Of a DNA stretch of 32,182 nt, positions 4,748 through 32,182 are shown piece by piece; position 1 is the stretch's first letter; each line of letters opens with the position of its first letter. Source of the DNA: a virus; the IMG/VR virus record IMGVR_UViG_3300048135_000414, positions 1 through 32,182 of that record; one strand, written 5' to 3'. Position numbers and translations under genes: made by a program. The notes beneath the pieces were generated by a model. It was not told the DNA's origin. It made no database searches and saw nothing but the letters and a program-made list of their open reading frames with translations.

Positions 4748-7700
4748 ATGGCACAAAAAATTAGACAAGCAAAATTATTCGCGGCTGAGGATTATACTAC
4801 TGTATATGAATCATATGTACAGGCGGATTTAAAATCGTACGATTACGATACCATACGAACTGGTATGGTTGAATATATCAGAACAAATTATCCAGAAAAT
4901 TATAACGATTGGGTTGAGAGTAGCGAATTTGTCGCACTACTTGATTTGATTGCACAGTTTGGACATAACTTAGCGTTCCGTGTAGACTTAAACAGTCGTA
5001 ACAATTTCTTATCTACTGCAACCAAACAAGAGAGTGTCTTAAAGTTAGCTGACTTTTTAGCATACCAACCAAAACGAAATGTGCCAGCATTTGGTTTGCT
5101 AAAACTCGTAAGTGTAAAAACTAACGAAGCAGTTATTGGTAGTGATGGTTCGAGCTTAGGCGGTAAAGAAATCCGTTTTGAGAACACCAGCTCTCCTGAT
5201 AACATTGATGACTTTACGGCTGTTATTAACAGTGTGTTTAATAAAAGTAATCCTTTTGGTAGCCCACAAAAACAGTCAATTATTGACGGCGTAATGACAG
5301 ACTTTTATGCACTAAACAACACAAATGATCAGGTATACTTTTCATTTAGTGGTGCAGTTCAAGGCATTTCAAGCTCGTTCAACGCAGTTAGTGTTACAAT
5401 AGAAAATGGACAGCTTGCAGAAAATTCACCAAATCCAAACGGATCATTTAACGTTGCATATAGAAATGATAACCTAGGTATCACAAGTAACAATACCGGG
5501 TTCTTTATGGGCTTTAAACAAGGACAATTACAATTTAAAGACTTTGAAATTACAGACACTATTAGTAGTCAGTCTTTAGATGTTAATATTTCAAATATTA
5601 ACGAAAGTGATGTTTGGGTACAAACAGTTACCAGTGATGGCGAAGTTCTTAAAAACTGGACTAAGGTAGATAAAAATGTTATCTACAATACAGTACCTTC
5701 AGGTGTACGTGATGTGTTTGCAGTTAAAACAAGAGCTACTAATCAAATTAGTATTATGTTTGCAGATGCTGCTTTTGGTAATGTACCTTCAGGTATTATA
5801 CGTGTTTGGTATCGTACAAGTGCCAATGACACTTATGTACTACGTCCAGATGATATTACCAACAAAAAATTTAGTATACAGTATACAGGTGCTGATGGCA
5901 ACCCATACACAGTTGTTTTTGAAGGACAGCTTAGACAAAGTGTATTAAACGCAAGTCGTAGCGAAACTGTTTCTGAGATAAAAGAAAACGCTCCTCGCAC
6001 CTTTGCATCACAAAATCGTATGATTACAGCAGACGATTATAACAGTTTACTGGCAACACAAAGTACATCAATTAAGAAAATTAAAAGTATAAACCGCACA
6101 CACAGCGGACACAGCCGTTATTTAGATATTAAAGATCCAACAGGTGCATACAGTAACTTACATCTTTATTCATTAGACGGTGTTCTTACTAGAGAACAAA
6201 TTACAAAAGAAAAAACAAGTGCTTCTAGAACACCAAGTAGTGTGTTTAGTAACTATATTGTTCCTATGTTAAATGATGATGAAGTAATTAACTTGTATTA
6301 TGATTTACACAGAAATCAATTCAATGCACTAAAAACAACCGATGCTGCATTTAACACACTAACATGGCAGGCGGCGAATGGTATTGAAGGCACAAGTGGT
6401 TACCTTACAGATGCATCTAACAATATTGCTAGAACAGGATTAGTAAGTTCAATTTATTCAAAATATATTAGAGATGGTGCTTTAGTAAAATTTACAAAAA
6501 ATAGTAAAACAGTATGGACAAAAGTATCAAGCATCTATAATAATGGATTAGGTGTTGACGATACAAGTGGTGCACCTACTGGGCTACGTGCAAATGGCGA
6601 CGGTGCTATTATTACAGACAGTGTTATTCCTAATGGATCGTCTGTAGAAATTATTTACCCTGCAATTAATAGAACATTTACAAGTGAAGAACGTTTTGCT
6701 ATTAATACATTCTTAACTGCAAAAACTGACTTTGCTCTTACATATGATTTTATTAACGGCGGATGGAATATATTAGAAACACCGACAGCAAAAACATCGG
6801 CGTTTGATATTATATCTTTCTTTAGTACACCAAATAATAATTGGATTTTACATGTAGATTTTGACACACTAGTAAATTATGGAAAATATAATATTACTAC
6901 TCGTGTTTCAAGATTTGTCTTAGAAAGTCAATTAATTGAGTTTAGTAATATTAATAATCAAGAAAAATTAGAAGAAGAAAGTAAAAAAGCAAGTCGAGAT
7001 CAAATTGAAATTATTGACTTAGGTGCTGGTACTACTGGTAACTTCTATGTTTATGGATACACATTCCAAGGACTAAACGGGCAGCAAGCTGGCGTTTATA
7101 ATCCTAATCGTGTTATATTATCACTAAAAGATAAAAATAAAGATGGACGTCCAGACGATCCAGATGCAGTATATAATATTTTAGGAAACAGTTCAAGTTT
7201 AGTTGATTTAAGAATTGAATGGAAACATATTCCAGATAAGAATGAAATTATTGATCCTAGCTTCAGTAATATTATTGACACATTTGTATTAACAACATCT
7301 TATGACAGCAATTATAGAAATTGGTTAAAAAATAACGACAAAACATTAGAGAGTGAACCTAACCCACCAACAATGGACATGTTAAATTCACAGTTTGGTC
7401 AGTTTATGGATAAAAAAGCAATGAGTGATACTATCATTTATCGCCCAGTAAAATATAAAGTTTTATTTGGTCCAGAAGCAGAATCAGAACTACAAGCAAA
7501 ATTTAGAGTTGTTAAATTACCAAACACAAGTTTAACAGACAACGAAATTAAAAGTAAATTAGTAGATGCAATTACTGAATTCTTCCATATTGATAATTGG
7601 GATTTTGGTGAAGAGTTCTTCTTTACAGAATTAGCAGCACACGTACACCAATCATTAGCTGGTGTAGTTAGTAGCTTTGTAATTGTACCTATGAGTTCAG

Positions 7701-7819
7701 ACAGTGTATTTGGAGATTTATTCCAGATAACACCACAGACAGACGAAATTTTTATTCCAGATGTGAGTATTTCAGATATAGATATCATTACAGATGCAAC
7801 ACAAGCAACAACGGTTTAA
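4748..7819 (+). CDS. gp6: gp6-like baseplate wedge subunit
   Basis: The protein has 1023 residues, longer than T4 gp6 (660) and in the style of marine T4-like phages. The N-terminus carries the gp6/GpJ-type core: LLDLIAQFGHNLAFRVDLNS, then RNNFLSTATKQESVLKLADF and YQPKRNVPAFG. A second recognisable block at about 410-440 (APRTFASQNRMITADDYNSL) is also typical of J-like wedge proteins, which arrange as a ring of dimers around the hub. The C-terminal 100 residues contain the family-like ELQAKFRVVKLPNTSLTDN and helices around a hydrophobic core. It directly follows gp25, the same order as in many contractile systems. The 9 nt gap to the giant gene suggests co-transcription. The identification is strong; the role of the extra middle region is unknown. 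Confidence 0.88.
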   Translation: MAQKIRQAKLFAAEDYTTVYESYVQADLKSYDYDTIRTGMVEYIRTNYPENYNDWVESSEFVALLDLIAQFGHNLAFRVDLNSRNNFLSTATKQESVLKLADFLAYQPKRNVPAFGLLKLVSVKTNEAVIGSDGSSLGGKEIRFENTSSPDNIDDFTAVINSVFNKSNPFGSPQKQSIIDGVMTDFYALNNTNDQVYFSFSGAVQGISSSFNAVSVTIENGQLAENSPNPNGSFNVAYRNDNLGITSNNTGFFMGFKQGQLQFKDFEITDTISSQSLDVNISNINESDVWVQTVTSDGEVLKNWTKVDKNVIYNTVPSGVRDVFAVKTRATNQISIMFADAAFGNVPSGIIRVWYRTSANDTYVLRPDDITNKKFSIQYTGADGNPYTVVFEGQLRQSVLNASRSETVSEIKENAPRTFASQNRMITADDYNSLLATQSTSIKKIKSINRTHSGHSRYLDIKDPTGAYSNLHLYSLDGVLTREQITKEKTSASRTPSSVFSNYIVPMLNDDEVINLYYDLHRNQFNALKTTDAAFNTLTWQAANGIEGTSGYLTDASNNIARTGLVSSIYSKYIRDGALVKFTKNSKTVWTKVSSIYNNGLGVDDTSGAPTGLRANGDGAIITDSVIPNGSSVEIIYPAINRTFTSEERFAINTFLTAKTDFALTYDFINGGWNILETPTAKTSAFDIISFFSTPNNNWILHVDFDTLVNYGKYNITTRVSRFVLESQLIEFSNINNQEKLEEESKKASRDQIEIIDLGAGTTGNFYVYGYTFQGLNGQQAGVYNPNRVILSLKDKNKDGRPDDPDAVYNILGNSSSLVDLRIEWKHIPDKNEIIDPSFSNIIDTFVLTTSYDSNYRNWLKNNDKTLESEPNPPTMDMLNSQFGQFMDKKAMSDTIIYRPVKYKVLFGPEAESELQAKFRVVKLPNTSLTDNEIKSKLVDAITEFFHIDNWDFGEEFFFTELAAHVHQSLAGVVSSFVIVPMSSDSVFGDLFQITPQTDEIFIPDVSISDIDIITDATQATTV

Positions 7820-7828
7820 GGTAAAAAA

Positions 7829-10800
7829 ATGAGCAAGTATAAAAGTAATAAGCCAACTACACCAGGTAGGAAAAAACGTGCAGGTAGCTATAAGGGTACT
7901 GAAATTAAAAGTAGTGACTTTTTACCAAGTGTTTTCCAAACTAACGTAAATAAATCATGGCTTAATGCAACCTTTGATCAAATGATTAGTAAATCAGATC
8001 TTAAAGATATTGATGAGCTAGTTGGTACAAGGGATGGCAGATACTTTGATAAAAATGACATTTATATGACAACATCTGAACATGATGTACGTGGTGTAAA
8101 GCAATTTGAACCAGCAATTGTAAGTAGAGACAAATCAAAAAATCTAACTAACCTTATAGGCATAGACGATATTTCAAACTCTATAAATGTTGATTTTGAT
8201 CAATATAATTATAATGCCGCTTACCAAACTCGTGCTTCAACATTCTTACCACCGATTGATGTTGATAAATTTATTAACTATGGACAATATTATTGGATAG
8301 AAAATTTACCAGTATATGAAAGTTTTAATACAAATATCACATATACAAACGTTGTAAGTGAAATTAATGGTGAGATTGAATATACATTCAAAGACGATGA
8401 GAATGAGTTCCCGTTAATGGATGGTATGATTATAGAATTTACCGCAGGTTATGGACAATGGGATGGCTGGCAGTTCTTAGTAACTGGTGTTGGTGATTTT
8501 ATTAAATTAAGACCATATAGATCTAACACAGGAAAAAATGAATGGAACGCACTTACATCTTACAATGGTGCAATACGAGGATACTGGGACAAGGGTGATG
8601 TTAAGCTATATGAGCGAGGTGCTATTTCTCAAGACTTATGGGATTATATTAAAGACCACAATGCAAATAAAACATTACCATTATTAAAACTTAGAGATAC
8701 TGGATTAGTTAAAAAAGTAAATCCTGATGGCACATCTGTAAATGGTGTAGACACATATATTAGCGGCAGAGTAATTGCTCGCTTTGATGAAGATTGGAAC
8801 TTTCAAAACAGCACAGGATCATATCCTTTTGCTAAAAACTTCCAGCCTTCTAATTTAGATGAATATAAAGTGTTTATTATTGATACAGACACAGATGGTG
8901 ATATTGAAGTTACATGTATTATTGACGCAAGGCTAACTTCTAATAATGAAATAGAACAATTTATTCCAAGCAACATTAATAAAGAGTTTGCGATGATTGC
9001 AGAGAATTTAGAAAACTATGACATCATTGGTTGGGACAACGACTTTAAACTTAATTCTGAAAAAGATTATATTGTTATTGACAGAGCAGACCCAATTGCA
9101 AGTGCATGGAGTCGTGTTAATATGTGGATACACAAAGAAGCATTATTCACTATTGCAGCAATGACAAATACATCAGACCAATATCTACTAAACAGAAAAG
9201 ATTTTCAAGCCAAACGTCCTATTATTGAATTTAATAAAAACATGTGGCTAACAAATCACGGCTATAGTGAATACAAATATGACTTTGTATGGCAAGGTAA
9301 CATTGATTTTATTATGTTAAGTAAAACAGTCGCAGAGGCAGAACTTTCTGTAGGAACAACATTTGTTGTGGTTGGTGACGATAAAGTTTATGAAGTAACT
9401 GCAACAGGTAGTCAAGTAAATGCCACACTTACAGCTGGTGACACAATGTTTATTATGTCAGGCGGCATACAGTCGCTTGTTGACAAATATCAATACCAAG
9501 ACGTATGGTTCACTGAAGATGGTGAATTTATGGTTGCGCAAAAAAAGAAGCGTGTAAACTTTGCACCTTACTTTAAGTTGTATGATGAAGATCAAACTTT
9601 ATTATCAGACACAAACAAATACCCTAACAGTACTGATAGAGGAAGTAAAATATTTGGATACAAACCTGGTACAGGTAAAAAGGATCCAGAGTTAAATTTT
9701 GCATTAACATATCAAGATACTGGATTTAAGGCAGAGATTGTATTTGAGAATTTTTTAGATAATACAGAAGTTACATACAGCAAAACATTATCTTCAGGAA
9801 GCCAATTGGCTGTACAAAGTAATATACCTGGATACTATTATTACAAACAAGGCATACATTATAAGTCAAATTATCAGACAAGTTATAAGCCTATTGGATC
9901 TTTAACTGATTACCAAGTTGTTGTTAGTGACCCAAGTGTTGCATTAGAAATTCCAGTAGGTAGTGACTCATGGGAAACAAATAAAGAATTCTTATTTTAT
10001 GAAGCAGACGATTGTTTTGCAGTACGTGAGCTTTATATGAAAGGTATATATCATGATTATGGATACCTAAAGCCACAGCTTATTATGCAACGAAATAAAA
10101 AATATGAATTCCATGATCTAGTTGGCGATTTAGAAATATATGATAAAGATTATAATGTTGAAACAAACTACACAACAATTAGTTTAACAGCACCATATAC
10201 ATATGACATTGAGTTTGACTCAAACGCAAATGATTATTATTACTATGGTTGTCCTCATTTAGGCACTGGAAGAATTATTGTTGTTGATGATATTAATCAA
10301 GTATATCATAAACTTTATATTGATGGTAAATTTGTACCATGCAGTAAGTATACCATTACAAACAACCAAATTATTGTGCCAAGCACATTATTAGAAACTG
10401 ATAGTGTAGTTGATGTACAATATTATACAAGTGAACTTCGTTACACATTGGATACTGAAATTCCAGAAGTACACAAGCACAATGCTACAAACGAAACTAT
10501 TGATACTTTTACATTCAGTGAAACATTGGATCACTGGAAAAGCATTATTGAAAGTGCAGTAGAGTTTGACGGGCAAGGCGATGGTAATAATAACTCACAC
10601 CGCAAGTTCAGTGTACAAACAAATGGCGGTACAATATTTAGACATGATGATATTAGTGTAATGCAAGACATTACATTAAGTGAAGATTCATTAAATGTAT
10701 CAGCTGGGCTAGTTGAACAAGGTAGAGAATGGGATAACTTTAAACAAAGATTTATTGCTCAAGTTAAAAAATTATATAAACAACAAAGTTGGTCAAGCGT

Positions 10801-13800
10801 TAAAGACATTGTAAACCAAGCGGTTGATAATATCACAGTTACACGCAAAGGCACATTACTGCATGCAGATAGTAATATGATATACACTGGAGAAGAAAAC
10901 TTTGATCGTATCGAACTTACAGGTAACAACCAAACTTTTACAACCAAATTTACATTTAACTCGGATAGAACTAAACAAGATCATTACTACATATATCTAA
11001 CAGATGATAAAAATGGTCTAGGATATATGACTACTCGAATTTTACATAAAGATTCAGACTACACAGTTAACGGAAGTGAAATTACTTTACTAGTAAATGC
11101 AATAGAAATACCAAGCCAACTTCCATACGTAACAGTTTACTATCACGAAATGGACAAAGTAAGTCACGTACCTGCAAGTATGACAAAACTTGGATTAGAA
11201 TTTCCAAGATTTATCCATATTGACAACGGCAAGTTTGTAGGACATGATGGTGCAATGATGCAAGTAGGTAATCAAAACTTTGACTTGTATAATATGAATA
11301 GCCAAACTTTTGATCCAGTAGTTGCATGTTTATGGGATCTTGAAACAAGAATTTATAACAACCTTGCTGAAACAGAACATTATATTTCAGCAAACAAATA
11401 CTTACCAAGTCAACACAGAGACACCTGGTATACACTAAACGATGTTAATAACTCTATGGAAAAATATTTCCGTAAATGGATGAACAAGAATAATATCTGG
11501 AATATTGATAAAGAAGATGAATATGATCCTGCAAATTCAAATACTTGGAATTATAATTCAATGGACTTGCATGGACACATGGAGCACCTTACAGGAAATA
11601 AACTGCCAGGATCGTGGCAAGGAAATTACATCATCTTATTCGGTACAGAGCGTCCAGATTGTATGCCTTGGATAATACTAGGCTTTGCTTGGAAGCCAGC
11701 TTGGTGGGATGACCATTATAGTTGGACTGATCCAATCAAACGTGCTAGCTTAATAGAAGCACTAAGAACTGGACAACAAAAAATGATCTGGCATAACTTA
11801 GGTGTGTCAGAACAAAGTGTAGCACATGCTCGTTATTATTGGGATTGGGATAATCATTGTCCAGTTAAAACAGACGGCACATTAGAGGATCCAGAAGTTG
11901 TACTAGGTACACCAGATCCTATTGATGCCGCAGTACCATTTGAGTGGGGAGACTATGGTTATATCGAAAGACGTTGGAGACATAGTGGTGAAGGTATTGG
12001 CGCATTAGTTGGTTCAATTGTTAAACTAAACAGAACAAAGGCGTGGACAGACTTCTTCCAACCAGGGTTTATTGTAGACAAACACAGCTTAGTGAACAAC
12101 AAAAGAATATCTCCTAGTGCATTACATTACCATGGCGGATTATATGGAGAGACAGTTAAGTCTATTAACGTAATTGATAGCTCAACAGGGTTAGGTACAA
12201 ATAGCACAGTAGATATCATATCACCTGCAAGTTCATTAGGCGCATCAGCAATAGCAAATGTTAATGCTTCTGGAGAACTTACACATGTTTCATTAACAAC
12301 CAGAGGTAATAACTTTGATCAGGATGCAGCCAAACATGTTGAGAATGTTGGCGGGCAAACGTTTAGTTATGCAAATGTTGATATGGTAAAGCAAGTTATA
12401 CCTTTCCATGCTAATGGTATTAATGTAACACAATTAAATAAAATTAAAAGAAATAATGAGAGCATTGACTTAGAGCAACTATACAAAAGTATAGACACAC
12501 AGTTGCTAATTAAAATGGGCGGCTTTACTGATAAGTCATTATTAAACATTCAAACTGAGAGTGGTATAAGCGGCGCATTTAAAATTAATGACAATGATTA
12601 TGAGATTGTATTACTTGAAGGTAAACCAACAAGAGTAGATGTAGCAAGCCAAATTTACATTGAAAAATTAAGTCAAGGTTTCCGTATAAAAGGTATCAGT
12701 AACGCACAACAGCGTTTTACTTTTAATGAGCCACTTATACAAGGTGCTAATGCATACAAAAATCTAAAGCTAGATAACAACGGTGTAGTTAGACAATATA
12801 CCAAGCACAGTGCAAAAGAAAGTTATATTGAATATGGTGCAGTACTTTCAAGAGTACAAGACACATATAATTTTATTAGAGGCTATGATCACTATTTAAA
12901 ATCAAGAGGTGTACTAGCAACAAACGATATTGGTAGCTCTGCATTTGGCTTTGCAAATTGGACAACACATGCACAGATTGGCGAAGTATATATTATTGAC
13001 ATCGGTTCAGGTGTTGGTTACCAATCAGACCATGGACACATTTTAGAATTTGGTGCTGCTCCAGAACATCAAAACGAATTATTAGACCCGCAAGGTAAAA
13101 AGATTGAAGCTGACGATTTAAGAGTAGTTAGAACTGAAAACCAACTTAGAGCGATTACAGCTGATGGCAGTTTAATAGGCTCAGCAGGATTTTCAGAAGT
13201 AGATTACGAACATGGATTGTTACTGTCAAATAAAACACAGTTTAACAGTACTATTTTTGATGACATTTCAAATGTTAGACATCAACGCTTACACATTAAA
13301 GGCAAGCGTACAGATGGCTGGAAAGGTCATAAATCTGCAAAAGGATATATCGTAAAATCAAATGGAATTAATCCAAACTTTGATTCTAGTGTTAACCAAA
13401 TAGACTACTATTATAAAACAGATATTAAAATTGACAATAGCGACATTAGTAAAATGGAAAAACTTACTAACGGAAATATTGATAGGGACTGGAGCAAAGG
13501 ATTTAATTTAAGCGACAATGTATTAAGTAACTTCTATCGCGAAATGATTAAAGACAGAGGTACTACTGGTATTGCAACAAAGCTGAATCGTAGTACATTA
13601 ATTAATTTAGGAAACAGTAACCTTACTACCAAAGAAGAATGGATGTTTAGAAATGGTTACATGGGTGATCCAACAAGAAGAAAAACAACAGAGATTGAAT
13701 TAAAAAGATCTAACAATGCAAGTGACATTAGACTGATTGACTTCTTTAATGATTCACCAGTTTATGTAAACAATGAGATACAAGTAGACTTTCCAAAAGT

Positions 13801-16800
13801 TACAATGGAAAAACAATACCCAATGTTTGCGGGTGATTGTCTAGAAACAGAAGTTGATTACGTAGTACCAAAACTTCCTGATTTAGATACACTATATGAT
13901 TCATTAGCAGACTATGCTAACATTCCAACATGGAATGGTACTACTAGTTACAAACGTGGCGACAGAGTTAGACGTAACGGTATGTTACTAAAATGTAATA
14001 CTAACTTTATTGGATATACAAGTGAAGTTTCAAACAATGACCAGACAGGTAGTGTAAGTAACCCAACATTTAGCTTCCGTCAAAGTGGAACACCTAGTGC
14101 AGTTATTGATGGTGTAAGTGTTTACTTCAATAAAACTACAACATTGTATAGTGCAATTGCTGTAACTGGATCAAATCAATCAGTACAAAGTCCTAAAACA
14201 TTAAACATTGACAATACATCAGTTAGCTTAGTAGTAACATCACAACAACAAATTATTGATACAACACAACCGTTTTCAGGTAACCCACATGTAAATTCAA
14301 ATGCGTTAGGTACTGGTACAGTTATCGTTGACAATTATGGAAAAACTTTAGAGATTGAAGGCACAACAATTAACCTTTGGGATCCAGCAGATGAAACACC
14401 AACAGTAACAACGACACCAAATCCAGATCAGTCAGAAACTATTACTGGCGATTCTACAACAACAGTTTGGCCATTAACAATACCAGCTAACGTTGATACT
14501 GTCACTGTTACTGTACCAGCAGGATATACTGAAGTGGTTGATCTTGTTAATGCAGAAGTTACAATTACACCAGCATTGCCATCACCACCTGATGCAGACT
14601 CAGAAGCTACAGTAACATATACAATTCAAGATACTGTTACTAGTGGGCCTCCTATTACAGGTGTTAATATTGATGCAGATGATGTTGTTGCATTTATTAC
14701 TGCGGCAAACATTCCAAATGTAACAGCTCAAAAGGATAGCAACGGTGTTATCTCAATAATTAAAAACGTAAACGGAAACACTACTGGTGCATTATTTGTA
14801 AGTAACGGAACAGCAAATGCAGATTTAGGAATAGCTGCAGGTAGTTTCCCACCAGCAGTAGATAATATTACAGTAAACGAACCTATTAGTACAGCAATTG
14901 CTCGCAACTTAATTAATGCAGCAAGTATTCCTAATGTAACAGCTTCACTAGATGCAAATCAAAATCTAGTGCTTACTAAAATAATTGGTAGCTCTATTGA
15001 CCCATCACAAGACACATTAGATATTAGTGGTAATGCTAACTTAACATACGGCTTTCCAGTACAAACCGGATATCCTTCATCTATAAGACAGGATTCAAGT
15101 ACTGTATCAGATGCGAGAGATTTTATTAACAGCGCCAATATTCCAGGCATAACTGCAAGTGTAGTACAAAATGGAAGACTAGTTGTACAAAGTTCTAATG
15201 GTACACTAGTTATTGGAGACAACACCGAGTTACAAACTGAAGCAGGTATTAATGCAGGCACATACTATTCATTATCAACGCCAGTTGAAAATGATTTTAA
15301 TGACCAGAAAACGTTCTGGGATGTAGACAGTTTCAATGATCCAGCATTGTTTAATATTTTTGTATTAGATGACACTGATTATGAAAAAGTTCAAACAGAC
15401 AGTATTGACAGTAAGTTTTGGGATTGGAATGTATTATCAGTTCAAGACTTTGGACTATACACGTTTGACGAAGGAAAAACTGAATGTAGTATTTGTGCAG
15501 GTGTAGATAGCCCAGAAGGTAACGATGCTCGTGTTACAGTACAAAAAGCACACAACCTTGAAGTTGGTGATTATGTAATGCTAGTTAACACTACTACGCA
15601 ACCTAGCTGTGATGGTATACACAAAGTTACACGTGTTGGTGATATTACAGAGCCTAATAGCTTCTATATTGATATGTATATTGAAGATTGCGGAAGTTCG
15701 CCATCAGTATTTGTTTTACGTAACTCTAGATTCTTTAGAACAAACGACAGAACAGCAAGTGTTAGCAGTGATTATTATAATCCAAAATTACAAGAGCTGG
15801 CTTGGACATCTAGAGATGGACAAAGTCGAGTAAGTACAAGTGTACACCGCTGGGCTGGAGGACAAGGCTATAAACCAGTGTCTGGTAGATACAGCAATAA
15901 GCGTATTACACATACCAAAGAGTCTGGATATAACAAAGTAATCGGTGCATCAATTTATGATGGACGTAAGCAATCAAGTTTAGTAGATTTAGAAATTTAT
16001 GATCCAGCAAGAGGATTATGGCCTGGTGTTGCTATGCGTGAGTTAGATAACATTAGTGAATATGATTTAGCACAGTATACTAACAGTACAGATTTATTAT
16101 TCGAAGGCAACGAAAGAAATGCATGGGGCGAAGAAAGAGTAGGTACTACTTGGTTTAATACTTCGTCAATCAACTATTGGGATTATGATCAAGGTGATTA
16201 TAATTACAGAAAAGAGCATTGGGGTAAACTAATTACTGGCAGTGTTGTTGAAGTTTATGAATGGACCAAGTCATCAGTACCACCAGACGAATATAAAAAT
16301 GCAGTACTTGAAGGTAAAGAAATTTATGGCACAGTTGCCACTGGTGAAGTATTTAAAGAGTTTGATGCAAGTGTTGGTGAGGACATTTATTACTATACAC
16401 AGGATCAAATTTGGAACGATTCTACAAGTGACTATGATGTTGTTTATTATTTCTGGGTTAAAGAAAAACTATATGTTCCAAACACAGATAGAATTTATAG
16501 CACACAACAGCTAGCAACCATTCTACGAGATCCAACACAAGCTGGTATCGCTTGGATGGCATTAGTAGACAGCAAGCAAATTATTATTGCTAACGCACAA
16601 CACTATCTAAATGACGATACAGTGTTGCAACTAACATACGAGTCAGAAATGAATCACAACAATTGGTTCATCCTAAATGAAGGTACAGATACAATTCCTG
16701 AGTACTGGTTTGTAGGACTTAGAGACAATGTTACTGGATTGCAAAGTGGTTATGATAGAGAATTACCAAATGAAACATTGCACCCATATAATAGATTTGG

Positions 16801-18517
16801 TGATGATAGAAAGATTGGACAAACTTGGTATAAAGACAAATATGAAACTAGACGCCAGGCACTAAGTGTTGCTAACCGCATGCTTAAAGAAATGAATTTA
16901 TTTGAAGACTTACCATACAAGTGGGATAGAACTCTTACAGATAAAAGTAGAATTATTGACTTTGGTGTAAATGCAGATCTAGTACCTGAGTGGATTGCAT
17001 CAACATCATATACTATTGGTGACAGAGTAATTTCTAATAGGATTGTATATGAAGCATTAAGTTCATTTACAAGTGGTACAGACGAATTTATTGATATTAA
17101 TACTAATGACTGGGTAATGATTAGTCAACTATATGATATGACTAGAGTTTGGGAGTATGCAGATTACGTACACCCAGCACACCCAAGTTATAAACGTGCA
17201 ACAATCTTAGTTGACAACAGAGTACAAGCATTGGCAGTAGATCCAACACAGCACCAAACTGTTGGCATTAATATCTACAATGCATCAAAGCAATTAGATG
17301 AGAGTGAAATATTTAATTGGATTAACGATAAGTGGATACTAACACACAAGAGAAATGCTACCATAGAGTTTAATGACTTTATTAGTAATAAAGATAACGA
17401 CATGGGTTGGGATTTTGGATCATGGGATCAGGGTGGTTGGGATCAGAACACAGCTATCTATGCATACCATGTTATTGAAGCCTTACGCAACGATATATTC
17501 ATCCAAATGCATAAAGATAACTTTAACAAGTTCTTCTTTGCAATGGTAAAATATGCAATTAGTACACAAAAACAGGTTGACTGGGTATACAAAACAACGT
17601 ATATTCAAGCAGAAATAGAAAACAAACTTGACGAACAACCAAAGGTATATAAAAAGAATACAGTAAATGAAGTTGTAGGATATTTGGAATCAGTAAAACC
17701 ATTCCATACTAAAGTAAGAACAGTGTTTGATAAGTATACAGTAGATGAGAATTTAAATTTAGCTATAAACGATTCGCACATCTTTAATATTACAATCGAC
17801 TCACAGCAATTGGATCCTAAAGAGACATTCCAAATTGAGTACTTAGGAGATGAGATTTCACTGGACTTTGGTGGCGATACCGAAGACACATTCGCCGCAC
17901 CATCATTTACAGACACAGCATCAACAGACACACTAACAGGTGGTGGATTTAATAACAGTTATGATTGGTCACTTACTGGAACAGATGTTGGTGCTGTTGG
18001 TAGACGCAGAGCAATATATTATTTCGATACACAAGAACATTTAAGTGTTCGTGTATTAACTAACACAGCAGGTAACACTGTTGATGCAGATAGCCGTACA
18101 TATCAATATCTGCAAGACAATAATGGGTATATAAGTGTATATGCCCTAGAGGATGCAATGACTGCAACAGTAGATGCCGACACAGAAAGTGACGACACTA
18201 GCATTATCCTATCGGTAGGCGAGGGACTAAAGTTTATTCCGACAGGAGGCTTTGCATTAATTAATAATGAAGTTCTACAATACGGCAGAGTAGACGGTGA
18301 CACACTACTTGATGTCACACGTGGCGAGTATGCCGCAAAAATAGTATCAGGAGATACGATTATAGATGTAACAAACAATAAACTAGATACAATTGAATCA
18401 ATTATAAGAGATTCTTCTCTAAGATTAAACGAGATTGGCAAGAGTATACTAGATAATACAAGTTCAAGCCTTGATGCAAAAACATTACAAGCTAATGGCC
18501 AAGGCACGGCCTTTTAA
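7829..18517 (+). CDS. Giant (3562 aa) baseplate/tail structural protein
   Basis: One uninterrupted frame, with AAGG 6-7 nt before the ATG. The N-terminus is basic and polar, then FLPSVFQTNVNKSWLNATFDQ and FINYGQYYWIENLP, a pattern I associate with very large structural proteins placed after gp6 in marine T4-like phages; by position it is a gp7-like wedge/outer baseplate candidate. There is no signal peptide or membrane segment. Two copies of a W-x5-Y-x2-GDRV module (W2035 and W3055) resemble small carbohydrate-binding modules. Residues about 2275-2480 hold three roughly 71-residue repeats. A Trp-Asp cluster (W3194, W3198, W3203) lies nearer the C-terminus. It may combine a wedge scaffold with surface-binding domains. 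The structural class is likely; the gp7 assignment is inference. Confidence 0.7.
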   Translation: MSKYKSNKPTTPGRKKRAGSYKGTEIKSSDFLPSVFQTNVNKSWLNATFDQMISKSDLKDIDELVGTRDGRYFDKNDIYMTTSEHDVRGVKQFEPAIVSRDKSKNLTNLIGIDDISNSINVDFDQYNYNAAYQTRASTFLPPIDVDKFINYGQYYWIENLPVYESFNTNITYTNVVSEINGEIEYTFKDDENEFPLMDGMIIEFTAGYGQWDGWQFLVTGVGDFIKLRPYRSNTGKNEWNALTSYNGAIRGYWDKGDVKLYERGAISQDLWDYIKDHNANKTLPLLKLRDTGLVKKVNPDGTSVNGVDTYISGRVIARFDEDWNFQNSTGSYPFAKNFQPSNLDEYKVFIIDTDTDGDIEVTCIIDARLTSNNEIEQFIPSNINKEFAMIAENLENYDIIGWDNDFKLNSEKDYIVIDRADPIASAWSRVNMWIHKEALFTIAAMTNTSDQYLLNRKDFQAKRPIIEFNKNMWLTNHGYSEYKYDFVWQGNIDFIMLSKTVAEAELSVGTTFVVVGDDKVYEVTATGSQVNATLTAGDTMFIMSGGIQSLVDKYQYQDVWFTEDGEFMVAQKKKRVNFAPYFKLYDEDQTLLSDTNKYPNSTDRGSKIFGYKPGTGKKDPELNFALTYQDTGFKAEIVFENFLDNTEVTYSKTLSSGSQLAVQSNIPGYYYYKQGIHYKSNYQTSYKPIGSLTDYQVVVSDPSVALEIPVGSDSWETNKEFLFYEADDCFAVRELYMKGIYHDYGYLKPQLIMQRNKKYEFHDLVGDLEIYDKDYNVETNYTTISLTAPYTYDIEFDSNANDYYYYGCPHLGTGRIIVVDDINQVYHKLYIDGKFVPCSKYTITNNQIIVPSTLLETDSVVDVQYYTSELRYTLDTEIPEVHKHNATNETIDTFTFSETLDHWKSIIESAVEFDGQGDGNNNSHRKFSVQTNGGTIFRHDDISVMQDITLSEDSLNVSAGLVEQGREWDNFKQRFIAQVKKLYKQQSWSSVKDIVNQAVDNITVTRKGTLLHADSNMIYTGEENFDRIELTGNNQTFTTKFTFNSDRTKQDHYYIYLTDDKNGLGYMTTRILHKDSDYTVNGSEITLLVNAIEIPSQLPYVTVYYHEMDKVSHVPASMTKLGLEFPRFIHIDNGKFVGHDGAMMQVGNQNFDLYNMNSQTFDPVVACLWDLETRIYNNLAETEHYISANKYLPSQHRDTWYTLNDVNNSMEKYFRKWMNKNNIWNIDKEDEYDPANSNTWNYNSMDLHGHMEHLTGNKLPGSWQGNYIILFGTERPDCMPWIILGFAWKPAWWDDHYSWTDPIKRASLIEALRTGQQKMIWHNLGVSEQSVAHARYYWDWDNHCPVKTDGTLEDPEVVLGTPDPIDAAVPFEWGDYGYIERRWRHSGEGIGALVGSIVKLNRTKAWTDFFQPGFIVDKHSLVNNKRISPSALHYHGGLYGETVKSINVIDSSTGLGTNSTVDIISPASSLGASAIANVNASGELTHVSLTTRGNNFDQDAAKHVENVGGQTFSYANVDMVKQVIPFHANGINVTQLNKIKRNNESIDLEQLYKSIDTQLLIKMGGFTDKSLLNIQTESGISGAFKINDNDYEIVLLEGKPTRVDVASQIYIEKLSQGFRIKGISNAQQRFTFNEPLIQGANAYKNLKLDNNGVVRQYTKHSAKESYIEYGAVLSRVQDTYNFIRGYDHYLKSRGVLATNDIGSSAFGFANWTTHAQIGEVYIIDIGSGVGYQSDHGHILEFGAAPEHQNELLDPQGKKIEADDLRVVRTENQLRAITADGSLIGSAGFSEVDYEHGLLLSNKTQFNSTIFDDISNVRHQRLHIKGKRTDGWKGHKSAKGYIVKSNGINPNFDSSVNQIDYYYKTDIKIDNSDISKMEKLTNGNIDRDWSKGFNLSDNVLSNFYREMIKDRGTTGIATKLNRSTLINLGNSNLTTKEEWMFRNGYMGDPTRRKTTEIELKRSNNASDIRLIDFFNDSPVYVNNEIQVDFPKVTMEKQYPMFAGDCLETEVDYVVPKLPDLDTLYDSLADYANIPTWNGTTSYKRGDRVRRNGMLLKCNTNFIGYTSEVSNNDQTGSVSNPTFSFRQSGTPSAVIDGVSVYFNKTTTLYSAIAVTGSNQSVQSPKTLNIDNTSVSLVVTSQQQIIDTTQPFSGNPHVNSNALGTGTVIVDNYGKTLEIEGTTINLWDPADETPTVTTTPNPDQSETITGDSTTTVWPLTIPANVDTVTVTVPAGYTEVVDLVNAEVTITPALPSPPDADSEATVTYTIQDTVTSGPPITGVNIDADDVVAFITAANIPNVTAQKDSNGVISIIKNVNGNTTGALFVSNGTANADLGIAAGSFPPAVDNITVNEPISTAIARNLINAASIPNVTASLDANQNLVLTKIIGSSIDPSQDTLDISGNANLTYGFPVQTGYPSSIRQDSSTVSDARDFINSANIPGITASVVQNGRLVVQSSNGTLVIGDNTELQTEAGINAGTYYSLSTPVENDFNDQKTFWDVDSFNDPALFNIFVLDDTDYEKVQTDSIDSKFWDWNVLSVQDFGLYTFDEGKTECSICAGVDSPEGNDARVTVQKAHNLEVGDYVMLVNTTTQPSCDGIHKVTRVGDITEPNSFYIDMYIEDCGSSPSVFVLRNSRFFRTNDRTASVSSDYYNPKLQELAWTSRDGQSRVSTSVHRWAGGQGYKPVSGRYSNKRITHTKESGYNKVIGASIYDGRKQSSLVDLEIYDPARGLWPGVAMRELDNISEYDLAQYTNSTDLLFEGNERNAWGEERVGTTWFNTSSINYWDYDQGDYNYRKEHWGKLITGSVVEVYEWTKSSVPPDEYKNAVLEGKEIYGTVATGEVFKEFDASVGEDIYYYTQDQIWNDSTSDYDVVYYFWVKEKLYVPNTDRIYSTQQLATILRDPTQAGIAWMALVDSKQIIIANAQHYLNDDTVLQLTYESEMNHNNWFILNEGTDTIPEYWFVGLRDNVTGLQSGYDRELPNETLHPYNRFGDDRKIGQTWYKDKYETRRQALSVANRMLKEMNLFEDLPYKWDRTLTDKSRIIDFGVNADLVPEWIASTSYTIGDRVISNRIVYEALSSFTSGTDEFIDINTNDWVMISQLYDMTRVWEYADYVHPAHPSYKRATILVDNRVQALAVDPTQHQTVGINIYNASKQLDESEIFNWINDKWILTHKRNATIEFNDFISNKDNDMGWDFGSWDQGGWDQNTAIYAYHVIEALRNDIFIQMHKDNFNKFFFAMVKYAISTQKQVDWVYKTTYIQAEIENKLDEQPKVYKKNTVNEVVGYLESVKPFHTKVRTVFDKYTVDENLNLAINDSHIFNITIDSQQLDPKETFQIEYLGDEISLDFGGDTEDTFAAPSFTDTASTDTLTGGGFNNSYDWSLTGTDVGAVGRRRAIYYFDTQEHLSVRVLTNTAGNTVDADSRTYQYLQDNNGYISVYALEDAMTATVDADTESDDTSIILSVGEGLKFIPTGGFALINNEVLQYGRVDGDTLLDVTRGEYAAKIVSGDTIIDVTNNKLDTIESIIRDSSLRLNEIGKSILDNTSSSLDAKTLQANGQGTAF
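14650..15265 (+). repeat. Three ~71-residue tandem protein repeats inside the giant structural gene
   Basis: The motif N-I-P-(N/G)-(V/I)-T-A recurs at residues 2295, 2367 and 2438 of the giant protein (bases 14711, 14927 and 15140), spaced 72 and 71 residues. Each is preceded by a helix-like I-N/T-x-A stretch and followed by a strand such as NGVISI, NQNLVLT or NGRLVVQ. The pattern resembles 'IN'-type repeats of flagellar and phage fibre proteins. DNA identity between copies is low, so the duplication is old. A weaker related unit may precede them near 14100-14250. Confidence 0.6.
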
Positions 18518-28261: not shown

Positions 28262-29513
28262 AACCACAGACAAGAACACAGTTGCCATATTTGGTGCGCC
28301 CAGAAGCGGTAGTACGTTTGCTTTCCACAACTTAGTCACTGGATTAATACGAGAGTATCCTGGATACAATACTGAATTTAACAGACAAAGACGTGGTGGG
28401 GAACCATTTAGAGACACAGTTTGGGGCGGCAACAGCCTAGAAGATAACTGGCGAGACTTTCCAGACGACTATTGGATTGGTAAATTCCATCTACTGGATA
28501 TGATTAATGCAGACAAAGCTGGCTTTGTGAACGATTTACTGGCAAATACTGGATATAAAATACTGTTGTTGCGCCGTAACTTGTGGGAAGGCAGCCTTAG
28601 TATGGCTATCAGCAGTGCAAAGAATCAGTGGATCAACAATTTAGACGACAGACAGATTGAATTAGACCCAGTGCATTTCAGAGACATGCTGGAGTTACAG
28701 CTACGCAATGTTAATCACATGTGGGGCGACAACGACTGGAATATCAGATACGATCAGTTCTGCTACACAGAAGAACTAACTGACAATCCAAGTCAGTGGT
28801 ATCAACGAGCAACCGGCAAATGGTTGGATCAGATAGTCAATCACATAGAGAAGTCGCCTCCCAAAGAACAAATCATAACCAATATAAATGAGATGCGTGA
28901 GATATACCAACAACACCCCAAAGTTATACGTGGTGGTGAGGTTGAAGGCGATATAATCAACTATCGTTTGCCAGAAGGCAGTGAACAGTATGTTGTTACA
29001 TACTGTCGTGGAGACCTGGGCAATCACTTCCTGTGGTTTGTTAATCAACACTTTGGTTATGACAGTCAGTTAACTGACACACCAGATCCAAACTGGATAT
29101 GGGATCCACAACGAGACAGCTGGCAACAACACACATTTGGTAAATCAGTACGCAAGTTTGCCAGTAAACTAACCAAAAGCCAAGCACTATGGGGACTGAC
29201 AGATCGCGAACAGCATGTGACTGGTACGGTACTCAACTTAGTATGGGATAACACTGATCCATCAGCAGTTGATTACTTTACACGCAGATACGCACACCTA
29301 GACTATGGAGAAGTGTTTCGCAACAACAACACCCGTAGACTACAAGCCAGACAGCAATTATCACTTGACATTGTGGACATAGACGTATATCGTTTACTTG
29401 TACTGGCTGACGCTGACGAATACAATCAGCTACTCAATATACTAGGAGTACCCGGTAGAGCAGACTGGCAACAAATGGTGGATACCATACAGGCACACGG
29501 ATTAGATGAGTAA
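28242..29513 (+). CDS. Sulfotransferase-like protein
   Basis: I choose ATG at 28242 (423 aa): an upstream in-frame ATG at 28203 lies inside the previous gene, whereas 28242 has GAGAG just before it. VAIFGAPRSGSTFAFHNLV (P-loop at 18-26) is the 5'-phosphosulfate loop of PAPS-dependent sulfotransferases, which resembles a P-loop kinase motif. LLRRNLWEGSLSMA supplies the Arg (111/112) and Ser (118/120) that contact the 3'-phosphate. The C-terminal 200 residues are an unrecognised extension with many Trp, Tyr and Asp. Such enzymes move sulfate from PAPS to hydroxyls or amines of glycans, lipids or Tyr. It overlaps the hydrolase gene by 20 nt and the next by 8 nt. The acceptor is unknown; a related nucleotide-binding protein without sulfation is possible. 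Confidence 0.7.
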   Translation: MYSHNHKTTDKNTVAIFGAPRSGSTFAFHNLVTGLIREYPGYNTEFNRQRRGGEPFRDTVWGGNSLEDNWRDFPDDYWIGKFHLLDMINADKAGFVNDLLANTGYKILLLRRNLWEGSLSMAISSAKNQWINNLDDRQIELDPVHFRDMLELQLRNVNHMWGDNDWNIRYDQFCYTEELTDNPSQWYQRATGKWLDQIVNHIEKSPPKEQIITNINEMREIYQQHPKVIRGGEVEGDIINYRLPEGSEQYVVTYCRGDLGNHFLWFVNQHFGYDSQLTDTPDPNWIWDPQRDSWQQHTFGKSVRKFASKLTKSQALWGLTDREQHVTGTVLNLVWDNTDPSAVDYFTRRYAHLDYGEVFRNNNTRRLQARQQLSLDIVDIDVYRLLVLADADEYNQLLNILGVPGRADWQQMVDTIQAHGLDE

Positions 29514-30675
29514 GTTTTGTTTATACGCATGGGAAGGCATCTACATAGCACCAACTGGAGAGTACAGTAGTTGTTGTGACATGACACCTGTGGGAGACTA
29601 CACTGGCATTCGTGACTTTTATACAAGCCCTGAAATGAACCAACTGCGACAGCAGTTGCTCGAAGGCGATGAGCCTTCCGCTTGCGAGAGGTGCTGGCGT
29701 AAAGAAAGAGCCGGACTGCCCAGCAGTCGAACAAATATCAATAACAGTAAGCTCAACGTGCCCACGGCGGCACATCTCCAAGCGGCGTCAGCCGCTCCGA
29801 AAATCTCGATGTGGGATATTAGAGACAACAATTTATGCAACATGGCATGTAGAATGTGCGGTACCTTTTGCAGTAGTATGTGGAATCAGGAGGTACTCAG
29901 TAATCCTGATATAACTTTCCGCCACGCTATAGGGGATAGTACAGTGCTTCGTATACCGGATCCCAAGCACAAGGACCTGTTGAAAACCTTTAGTGACAAT
30001 ATAGACACAGTAAAAATGCTGTACTGGGCTGGCGGTGAACCGCTTATCAACCACACACACTGGCAGATATTGAACCAGTTGGTGGAGGCTGGACGTACTG
30101 ATGTGCAGTTACGCTACAACACCAACATGCTAAAGCTGGACTATCAGGGGCAAAATGCCATAGACATGTGGAGAAAATTCACCGGTCACGTTGGCGTAAC
30201 CGTTAGCATGGACTGTACAGGCGATCGTGCTGAGTATGCCCGACATGGAACACGCTGGACCACCCTGGCTGATAACATCAATCACTTGCTGGAATACTTC
30301 CGCGGAGGCACACACGTTAGTATAACCAGTAGCATATACACCATAGCTGCCCTGCCGGACACCCTAAAATGGCTTCACAGTCAGGGAGTAGAACGTATCA
30401 TATACAGTAATGTATTGTACACACCAGAATACCTGTGTGTAGACATACTTCCAGTGGAGGTTAAACAGGATATATTAACTCGACTAGCACCCTATCAGAA
30501 TGCTGATGATGGTTACAATCAGATAAAATATATGCTGGAACGTACTCCAGTGGATGTAGAACAACGTAGAGCTGACTTTGTGGAGTATACTCAACAAATA
30601 GATGCCAGTAGAGATCAGAGTGTACACACTGCATGTCCTGAATTAAGTGAATACATGCACACCTGGAGACAATAA
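29506..30675 (+). CDS. Second radical SAM protein with Cys-rich N-terminus
   Basis: The protein has 389 residues. C111-x3-C115-x2-C118 (NLCNMACRMC) binds the 4Fe-4S cluster and WAGGEPL (GGEP 176-179) follows. The N-terminus has C23-C24 and C60-x2-C63 (ACERCWR), matching the C100-x2-C103 motif of the larger radical SAM protein upstream, including the following Trp and a shared RTN. The two are therefore diverged relatives with the same N-terminal auxiliary-cluster-like region, not tandem identical copies. It overlaps the sulfotransferase gene by 8 nt (ATGAGTAA). Its bases 29641-29796 hold five perfect inverted repeats and are richer in GC than the flanking genes. Action on a peptide or sugar is likely for the family; the substrate is unknown. 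Confidence 0.83.
   Translation: MSKFCLYAWEGIYIAPTGEYSSCCDMTPVGDYTGIRDFYTSPEMNQLRQQLLEGDEPSACERCWRKERAGLPSSRTNINNSKLNVPTAAHLQAASAAPKISMWDIRDNNLCNMACRMCGTFCSSMWNQEVLSNPDITFRHAIGDSTVLRIPDPKHKDLLKTFSDNIDTVKMLYWAGGEPLINHTHWQILNQLVEAGRTDVQLRYNTNMLKLDYQGQNAIDMWRKFTGHVGVTVSMDCTGDRAEYARHGTRWTTLADNINHLLEYFRGGTHVSITSSIYTIAALPDTLKWLHSQGVERIIYSNVLYTPEYLCVDILPVEVKQDILTRLAPYQNADDGYNQIKYMLERTPVDVEQRRADFVEYTQQIDASRDQSVHTACPELSEYMHTWRQ
29641..29796. repeat. Cluster of five perfect short inverted repeats inside the radical SAM gene
   Basis: The stems are CAACTGC/GCAGTTG around GACA (29641-29658); GAAGGC/GCCTTC around GATGA (29662-29678); GACTGC/GCAGTC around CCA (29714-29728); GTGCC/GGCAC around CACGGC (29758-29773); AGCGGC/GCCGCT around GTCA (29781-29796). 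All are perfect with loops of 3-6 nt and fall within 156 bp. Stems 1 and 3 share the core ACTGC/GCAGT. They lie in a part of the coding frame that also spans the conserved CERCW motif, so they are not an obvious insertion. Confidence 0.75.
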
Positions 30676-30677
30676 AT

Positions 30678-31196
30678 ATGTTAGTACGTGTAGATCCACC
30701 AGTACAAGACATACTAGACTTCGCAGTACGTTGTGGTGAACTTGGTTATGGTAATAATGATAGTTTACACAGTATGAAGTATCAGTGGTGTAAAGATGTT
30801 GGTGGTGCTTGGTGGGCGGCATATCAGAACGGCAATATAGTTAGCATAGCTGGATGTCATCCATTCAGAGACGGATATCGTTTTGTATTCCGTGGAGCGC
30901 AAACTGTAGCACATCGTAGGGGATTAAGTAGAGATCACGCTAGTAGCATACCCTGGTGTGTACTAATGCCGGAACAGATAGCTTATTGTGGTGGAGTAGC
31001 AGAGATGAGTACTCCAGCATATATTACTACTAATGTTAGTCATGACAGTAGTGGAAAGATGAATAGAACACATCGTGTACTACATCATTTAAGTCACCGT
31101 GGTACAGTTGATTATGTGGGGGATGACACCATATACAATACACTACAGAGTGTGTGGAGATTAAACGTGGGAAGATATTATGAAACGCTGGTATAA
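30678..31196 (+). CDS. Possible GNAT-type acyltransferase
   Basis: The protein has 172 residues, a usual length for a GNAT domain. The N-terminal helix region leads to WWAAYQNGNIVSIAGCHPFRDG, which reads as the paired strands of a GNAT core. GAQTVAHRRGLSR sits where the acetyl-CoA pyrophosphate loop would be, but lacks the full (R/Q)xxGx(G/A) pattern. The C-terminal NVGRYYETLV resembles a late GNAT strand. There are no membrane segments. GGAGA lies 8 nt before the ATG, which starts 2 nt after the previous stop, and the next gene overlaps its end by 17 nt. If it is a GNAT, it would acylate an amine in the cassette's product. I am unsure; it could be an unrelated conserved phage protein. Confidence 0.4.
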   Translation: MLVRVDPPVQDILDFAVRCGELGYGNNDSLHSMKYQWCKDVGGAWWAAYQNGNIVSIAGCHPFRDGYRFVFRGAQTVAHRRGLSRDHASSIPWCVLMPEQIAYCGGVAEMSTPAYITTNVSHDSSGKMNRTHRVLHHLSHRGTVDYVGDDTIYNTLQSVWRLNVGRYYETLV

Positions 31197-31446
31197 CAGA
31201 CATCATTTACAGGATGCAGGAGTATCATACTTCCAGCATATGTGGGGAAGTTTACAACAGGCTGGAGTACAGTTCATCTTATTCTGGTTAAGCATAGTGC
31301 ATGCCATCTTTCCGTTCATAGGAGACTGGCAATTATTGCGTATAGTGGTGAGACAAGCCATACAGCTACACAGCTTCGTACCTGATAGTCCAGTGTGGCG
31401 AGAGTTAAGAAGTGAACTGGAAAAAAAACCTGACAGCGACCAGTAA
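31180..31446 (+). CDS. DUF6356-like small membrane-associated protein
   Basis: The protein has 88 residues. HHLQDAGVSYFQHMWGSLQQA followed by a hydrophobic helix (about 28-48) with IVHAIFPFIG matches the layout of the DUF6356 family as I recall it: His-Leu, Ser-Tyr, x-Gln/Glu-His, a membrane helix and His-Ala-x-x-Pro-Phe. The rest is a short charged tail (ELEKKPDSDQ). Function of the family is unknown; bacterial members often sit near envelope or capsule genes. The start overlaps the previous gene by 17 nt. It closes the overlapped gene string and precedes a 93 nt gap. One membrane helix next to sugar- and acyl-handling enzymes would fit a membrane anchor, which is inference. Confidence 0.6.
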   Translation: MKRWYNRHHLQDAGVSYFQHMWGSLQQAGVQFILFWLSIVHAIFPFIGDWQLLRIVVRQAIQLHSFVPDSPVWRELRSELEKKPDSDQ

Positions 31447-31508: not shown

Positions 31509-31530
31509 ACACTCACCCCTATTTTGAGGA
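31497..31530 (+). promoter_or_regulatory. Possible weak sigma70-type promoter and ribosome site before the adenylating-enzyme gene
   Basis: TTGTCT (31497-31502) and TATTTT (31520-31525) are 17 nt apart and match 8 of 12 consensus bases. GAGGA at 31526-31530 lies 9 nt before the ATG at 31540. This is the only gap over 60 nt inside the accessory region, so separate control of the last gene is reasonable. The match is weak. No intrinsic terminator was seen in the gap: the seven-T run at 31492-31498 is not directly preceded by a GC-rich stem. Confidence 0.35.
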
Positions 31531-31539
31531 TTAAGAATT

Positions 31540-32182
31540 ATGAAACAATTTATCGATATTTTAAATCACGGTTGCTGGATGCACACCAGTGGTACAACAG
31601 GAGCCAGTAAACCAGTCTGGCAGAGCCGGGATCGTATACTGGCCGCTAACGATGCCGCCAGAGACCTACAGGGTATAGACCGGCACAGCCGTGTGTTAAC
31701 TGTGTGTGATATAGAACATGCCGGAGGCTTACTAGCACAGACACTACCAGCATATGAGATTGGTGCTCACACAGACATTGCAAAGTTCAACCCCCGAACA
31801 TATATGACTGACATTCGTCTGTATACACACAGCCACTTGACACCACGTATGGCTCGTGCTATAATGAAGACTCGATCGTTTAAGGATCATTCACTCGTAG
31901 GGCGGACCATAACATGTGGTAGCGAACCAGTCACTAGTGACATCATACGGGCATTCACTGAACGTGGTGCCACCTTCATCGCTAACTGGGGGATGACTGA
32001 GTGTGGACCCGTAGCCATCAGTCAGGTATATGATAGGCATACTGACATAGTGGATGATGTCCGTGGGTTAACCGTTATGGGAGACCAGACATTCGTTGAC
32101 TGGACTACGGCTGAAGGCCAGTTGTGGGTACGTGGAGACATATGTAGCTATACTGGATGGTATCCCACTGGCGATCGTGTAG
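31540..32182 (+). CDS. ANL-superfamily (AMP-forming) adenylating enzyme, N-terminally short; 3' end outside window
   Basis: At least 214 residues, open to the end of the window. Motifs are in family order: P-loop A3 HTSGTTGASKP at 15-25; DIEHAGGLL at 57-65 (A4-like); TCGSEPV at 125-131; A5 NWGMTECGP at 149-157; GQLWVRGDI at 193-201 (A6); WYPTGDR at 207-213 (A7, with the ribose-binding Asp212). ANL enzymes activate a carboxylate with ATP as an acyl-AMP and pass it to CoA, a carrier or an amine. The P-loop normally follows 80-190 residues of N-terminal subdomain; here it starts at residue 15. An in-frame TGA at 31525-31527 rules out an upstream extension. It is either a minimal form or needs a partner. 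The substrate cannot be inferred. A3 to A7 are intact, so activity is plausible. Confidence 0.85.
   Translation, partial: MKQFIDILNHGCWMHTSGTTGASKPVWQSRDRILAANDAARDLQGIDRHSRVLTVCDIEHAGGLLAQTLPAYEIGAHTDIAKFNPRTYMTDIRLYTHSHLTPRMARAIMKTRSFKDHSLVGRTITCGSEPVTSDIIRAFTERGATFIANWGMTECGPVAISQVYDRHTDIVDDVRGLTVMGDQTFVDWTTAEGQLWVRGDICSYTGWYPTGDRV

Follow-up and report, generated by a model that had tools for sequence, protein, structure and literature searches.

The gene at the 3′ end of the window, the 32,182-base stretch of DNA analysed here, which is a complete IMG/VR record (G000), belongs to a conserved family of proteins of about 230 residues in uncultured marine phages and a few marine bacteria. 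This family, here called the mini-ANL, retains just the ATP-binding core of the acyl-activating (ANL) enzymes, and is a real reduced family and neither a frameshift product nor a fragment. Because what defines a complete ANL is lacking at both ends, we class the mini-ANL as a shortened derivative of the ANL enzymes, without the standing of a standard member. A sequence-only reading of the window had proposed a truly reduced ANL-type protein that starts at the P-loop and lies within a phage gene cassette, and the relatives support this proposal; that the ORFs also stop at the A8 hinge, and that the gene occurs in Methylophilaceae genomes, had not been foreseen.

Ends and conservation of the mini-ANL

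The mini-ANL frame (31540-32181 in the ORF listing) stays open up to the contig end. As the window is the entire IMG/VR contig, the gene is cut there, and comparison with relatives suggests that 10-20 or so further codons are missing at its 3′ end. No contig overlapping this end was found by exact 41-mer search of viral_contigs, a search that may pass over near-identical records. The encoded protein covers positions 167-377 of the 384 in the Pfam AMP-binding profile PF00501 and is 48-55% identical to its closest complete relatives. The start just ahead of the P-loop and the in-frame stop five codons upstream were confirmed, and the motifs A3, A5, A6 and A7 reported earlier are all present, A6 in an A6-like form, together with an A4-like motif (Table 1). 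The number of residues ahead of the P-loop, given before as 14, is 15. The GAGG at 31526-31529, before the ATG, is a plausible ribosome site.

Table 1. Coordinates of the mini-ANL gene, its motifs and its upstream neighbours in the window
Feature	Position	Strand	Evidence
Mini-ANL gene, 3′ end cut by contig end	31540..32182	+	PF00501, E=2.1e-20
In-frame TGA, 5 codons 5′ of ATG	31525..31527	+	Sequence
A3 P-loop TSGTTGASK, residues 16-24	31585..31611	+	Conserved in family alignment
A4-like HAGG, residues 60-63	31717..31728	+	H, G, G 35/35, A 34/35
A5 motif NWGMTECGP, residues 149-157	31984..32010	+	NWGM, E, G, P 35/35
A6-like QLWVRGD, residues 194-200	32119..32139	+	V 35/35, L 34/35, G 32/35
A7 motif TGD, residues 210-212	32167..32175	+	T and D 35/35
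DUF6356 protein (88 aa) with a single strongly hydrophobic stretch, immediately 5′ of mini-ANL	31180..31446	+	PF19883, E=2.2e-6; hydropathy
GNAT-fold protein, 172 aa	30678..31196	+	Family AF2 model, Foldseek
Twitch-domain radical SAM protein NF033640, neighbour	29506..30675	+	E=8e-94; cassette membership not implied

A profile built from the window protein and L002, a relative recovered with it (a complete 237-aa ORF with the same start, ending GHFYYMGRNNA-stop), retrieved 39 viral contigs. In all, 74 homologous ORFs were collected, some from contigs fetched twice, which fell into 35 clusters with less than 90% identity. The complete ORFs among them span 223-247 aa, and none has the N-terminal segment with A1-A2, only 11-24 residues preceding the P-loop. 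At the other end, every one of the 34 complete distinct members has the A8 arginine (R226), after which the ORF runs on for just 1-12 residues before its stop codon. The sequence-only reading had asked for the 3′ remainder to be checked for A8 and A10; in the relatives, the C-terminal domain with A9 and the A10 lysine is absent from all 34 complete distinct ORFs. Lack of A10 is one half of what that reading had named as a refutation, the other half being lack of any adenylation activity. Because the complete ORFs share the same start and the A8 stop, neither the pre-P-loop segment nor the C-terminal domain occurs anywhere in the family, and the truncation at both ends is fixed throughout it.

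The residues in between are strongly conserved. In the P-loop (A3, [ST]SG[ST]TG..K), the S, the G, the second T and the following G were found in 35/35 clusters, the first T of the pair in 32/35 and the K in 34/35, and both A5 (NWGM.E.GP) and A7 (T.D) were invariant (35/35). The motif residues S20, G21, T23, G24, K27, H63, E157, T210 and D212 were kept in 34-35 of the 35. The gene is under purifying selection, with dN/dS of 0.06-0.24 in all 17 pairs compared (our own Nei-Gojobori script).

That a frameshift, an assembly break or a decaying pseudogene has shortened an ordinary ANL is suggested by the window copy, which ends at its contig end, and is extremely improbable given that 34 other distinct sequences have the same start and stop, that the stop-to-stop frames of members complete at both ends span just 224-256 aa, that dN/dS is low, and that copies lie on bacterial contigs, one of them of 1.35 Mb. 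No normal-length relative with high identity to the family was found among the 74 sequences. A start misread through a frameshift near 31525, raised earlier as a possible refutation, was ruled out, because the relatives start alike and the upstream DNA encodes other conserved genes. Frameshift, mis-start and pseudogene were thus each rejected on the shared ends, the stop-to-stop frames and dN/dS.

Predicted fold and related proteins

An AlphaFold2 model of the mini-ANL from locus L003, computed with 35 sequences, confidently predicted the ANL core fold (pLDDT 93.5, pTM 0.90). In Foldseek, the model matched ANL structures with E down to 1e-13 and TMq of 0.69-0.81 among the best 50 matches, the best being MenE chain 3ipl_C (E=1e-13, TMq 0.76; sequence profile E=1e-9). 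MenE (o-succinylbenzoate-CoA ligase; PDB 3ipl, 6nj0) shares with the mini-ANL the core fold and the order of motifs A3-A8. Unlike the mini-ANL, with which it has only about 22% identity, 3ipl has a long segment ahead of the P-loop (of its 501 residues, the first to be matched by the profile is residue 168), and MenE has a C-terminal domain, which is missing from the mini-ANL. In the short acyl-CoA synthetase of Dyadobacter fermentans (PDB 4gs5, 358 aa), the profile match begins at residue 41, and this protein is, by sequence comparison, a precedent for the N-terminal loss; it is about 130 residues longer than the mini-ANL, a length that leaves room for a C-terminal domain. To our knowledge, no solved ANL naturally lacks both ends. 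Searches of PDB and BFVD likewise revealed no described ANL of this kind. BFVD does contain the mini-ANL-like entry A0A6J5L770, a 214-aa AMP-dependent synthetase/ligase from an uncultured Caudovirales phage, which resembles the mini-ANL in length and fold (TMt 0.77), with 23% identity, and on which the literature search yielded no paper.

Longer ANL genes are found in several of the phages that carry a mini-ANL, some of them a few kb away (L014, L030, L012, L022-L024, L026). These separate ANL-like proteins, of families 16 and 27, are 388-511 aa long (L014:11766-13190, L030:13045-14472, L003:17342-18877 and others). The 388-393-aa forms of family 16, encoded about 5.5 kb from the mini-ANL on some contigs, differ from it in having about 100 residues ahead of the P-loop region and in continuing beyond A8 with an A10-like GQGKINRK, as seen by eye. 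With these longer ANLs in some of the same phages and other phage AMP-dependent synthetases in BFVD, an adenylating enzyme in a phage is not unique; the sequence-only reading had regarded one in a lytic-type phage operon as unusual in itself.

Among 50,697 records of isolate phages, no relative of the mini-ANL of comparable strength was found; the window protein gave one weak match, to the 2-succinylbenzoate-CoA ligase gene of a Staphylococcus phage, and the L003 mini-ANL and the GNAT-fold protein gave none. Our literature search returned no published description of the family, and nothing relevant on DUF6356, phage adenylating genes or ANLs without the C-terminal domain.

Gene cassette and bacterial copies

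The mini-ANL gene was shown computationally to be linked to genes for a DUF6356 protein, a GNAT-fold protein and a third protein, F2. In 21 of 34 distinct relatives, the gene immediately preceding the mini-ANL encodes DUF6356. When the neighbourhood was limited to 3.5 kb and to the strand of the mini-ANL, 25 of the 34 had the GNAT-fold gene, 24 had F2 and 25 had DUF6356; just 17 of 34 clusters had the full set of three, with contig ends truncating some of the loci. Searching independently with the GNAT-fold protein yielded 34 loci, 33 of which also carry a mini-ANL; in the sole exception, L050, the GNAT-fold gene is about 0.9 kb from the contig end. The gene order differs in L034, L037 and L059, yet the cassette genes stay together, and in L051 F2 and the GNAT-fold protein are fused into one protein of 413 aa (L051:7627-8865).

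The DUF6356 proteins at these loci are 67-135 aa long with one hydrophobic 19-residue stretch, and are probably membrane-bound. The AF2 model of the GNAT-fold family (pLDDT 92.2, pTM 0.87) had GNATs as its best PDB matches in Foldseek, with modest scores (E of about 2e-4, TMq 0.43-0.57). Its acyl-CoA loop departs from [RQ]xxGx[GA], with the first Gly in 30/30 sequences and N, S or T in 25/30 and Gly in 5/30 at the second site; as the loop is non-canonical, the activity of this protein itself is uncertain. F2 weakly resembles a family of phage sulfotransferase-like proteins (one pairwise hhalign comparison, against A9, gave a probability of 90.8). A sequence-only profile search gave no convincing PDB match for the GNAT-fold protein or F2.

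Other genes were noted around these loci. The window encodes a second twitch-domain radical SAM protein NF033640 (25816-27372, E 5e-90), a 3,562-aa virion structural protein (7829-18517, phrog_10938, E=1e-192), and a baseplate protein (4748-7819) that shares 36-37% identity with its counterparts in the baseplate wedge of jumbo phages PA5oct and GAP32. By eye, a flavin-dependent tryptophan halogenase-like gene lies between the GNAT-fold gene and DUF6356 in L022, L023 and L024, and TctA- and TctC-like tripartite tricarboxylate transporter genes lie at about 10 kb or nearer in L012, L022-L024, L006 and L036.

A mini-ANL match was obtained in 4 of 31 genomes of one Methylophilaceae genus. The pair of DUF6356 and mini-ANL is present in at least three of these genomes (L074, L075, L077), the fourth match being L079; in wider Pseudomonadota, 1 of 398 genomes was positive, and this was an already known positive. 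On L075 (contig of 125,594 b), the pair is placed among ordinary genes, with dnaB, alanine racemase, a RadA-like ATPase, nucleoside phosphorylase and peptide deformylase on one flank and a glucose/sorbosone dehydrogenase and a Cys/Met PLP enzyme on the other. Two adjacent squalene/phytoene synthase-like genes, identified by eye, lie a few genes upstream of this mini-ANL (L075:3539-5229). On L077 (G050, contig of 1,352,814 b) the pair is flanked by a fasciclin-domain gene and an alcohol dehydrogenase gene, and in L074 it is located near the contig end. In the tree, L074 and L077 formed a clade (99/92) whose sister is the phage sequence L032 (100/100). This placement indicates that the mini-ANL has been transferred between phage and bacterium, in one direction or the other. 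Since the bacterial loci examined carry just DUF6356 and the mini-ANL close by, not every mini-ANL has the GNAT-fold protein as a partner.

Possible function of the reduced protein

The reading that we tentatively favour, though we give it somewhat less than an even chance, is that the mini-ANL is a minimal adenylating core whose adenylate is handed to a partner. The core would correspond to the P-loop-to-hinge part of the ANL N-terminal domain, having lost the roughly 150 residues ahead of the P-loop as well as the swinging C-terminal domain. Its would-be ATP-binding motif residues are conserved across the 35 clusters of the alignment, and it would bind ATP and a carboxylate and form an acyl-adenylate, while DUF6356 would anchor it at the membrane. 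Because the parts that drive thioester formation are missing, the adenylate would pass to a partner, probably the GNAT-fold protein in phages, and not to CoA or a carrier protein, and the cassette would thereby put an acyl or amino-acyl group onto a phage or host molecule. A carrier protein as the partner was rejected, no PP-binding match having been found on 27 phage contigs searched (G005 and G008 included; G029 and G031 left out). While an ANL enzyme adenylates its substrate, its active site is occupied by the A10 lysine, which the C-terminal domain carries; when the thioester is formed, the A8 loop, which follows the hinge, enters that site (PMC8341999, PMC8807600). As the A10 lysine is absent, catalysis by the mini-ANL may be very slow or lost. 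Also counting against the favoured reading are the bacterial loci with only DUF6356 beside the mini-ANL, the 17 of 34 clusters to which the complete neighbour set is confined, and the non-canonical acyl-CoA loop of the GNAT-fold protein. The suggestion that part of the acyl pocket has been lost with the N-terminal subdomain holds only partly: the segment before the P-loop is gone, but the A4-A5 region, where most NRPS specificity residues are generally located, is still present.

Two other readings are each unlikely, and both are less probable than the adenylating core with hand-over. The better placed of them is that the core, while retaining a nucleotide or adenylate site, performs no adenylation and acts as a sensor, scaffold or decoy, as might be expected from the loss of both the A10-bearing domain and the pre-P-loop segment and from how closely it is paired with DUF6356, a hydrophobic protein that is probably membrane-bound. 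Against this, 34-35 of 35 diverse members keep the P-loop lysine, the A5 glutamate and the A7 aspartate, and none of the 34 complete ones lacks the A8 arginine, whereas pseudoenzymes usually lose some such motif residues. Slightly less probable again is a half-enzyme completed in trans, which would borrow the N-terminal segment, the C-terminal A10 domain or both from a full-length ANL that either the host or the same phage encodes. The protein does end exactly at the A8 hinge, a natural joint, several phages have longer ANL genes, some a few kb off, and the bacterial genomes G027 and G028 have their own ANL gene with PF13193. Against it, the mini-ANL is the only PF00501 gene on four phage contigs that may be incomplete (G005, 151 kb; G008, 205 kb; G029, 222 kb; G031, 192 kb), and none of the four has a PF13193 domain. 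On the contigs searched, PF13193 was present only inside longer ANL frames and never as a separate domain, and separate coding of the missing domains elsewhere on the phage was rejected. The earlier idea that another cassette protein supplies the missing part found no sequence support either, the neighbours being GNAT-fold, DUF6356 and weakly sulfotransferase-like proteins, none of which resembles the missing parts.

The fullest version of the favoured adenylating core, in which acyl-adenylates made by a half-size ANL without an A10 domain go directly to a non-CoA GNAT-fold acceptor enzyme at the membrane, the system being exchanged between marine jumbo phages and Methylophilaceae, is improbable as a whole, at roughly one chance in five; if true, it would be a new two-protein route of adenylate-driven acylation. 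The family matters because both lost ends had been thought necessary for catalysis: in current models, adenylation requires the A10 lysine and thioester formation requires rotation of the C-terminal domain. A natural P-loop-to-hinge core that is under selection and confidently predicted to fold offers a test of what the core does alone, and it bears on the minimum size of an adenylating enzyme and on how a missing domain may be replaced. Beyond the enzyme itself, the family draws attention to an as yet uncharacterised modification cassette that marine jumbo phages carry and that has a foothold in Methylophilaceae.
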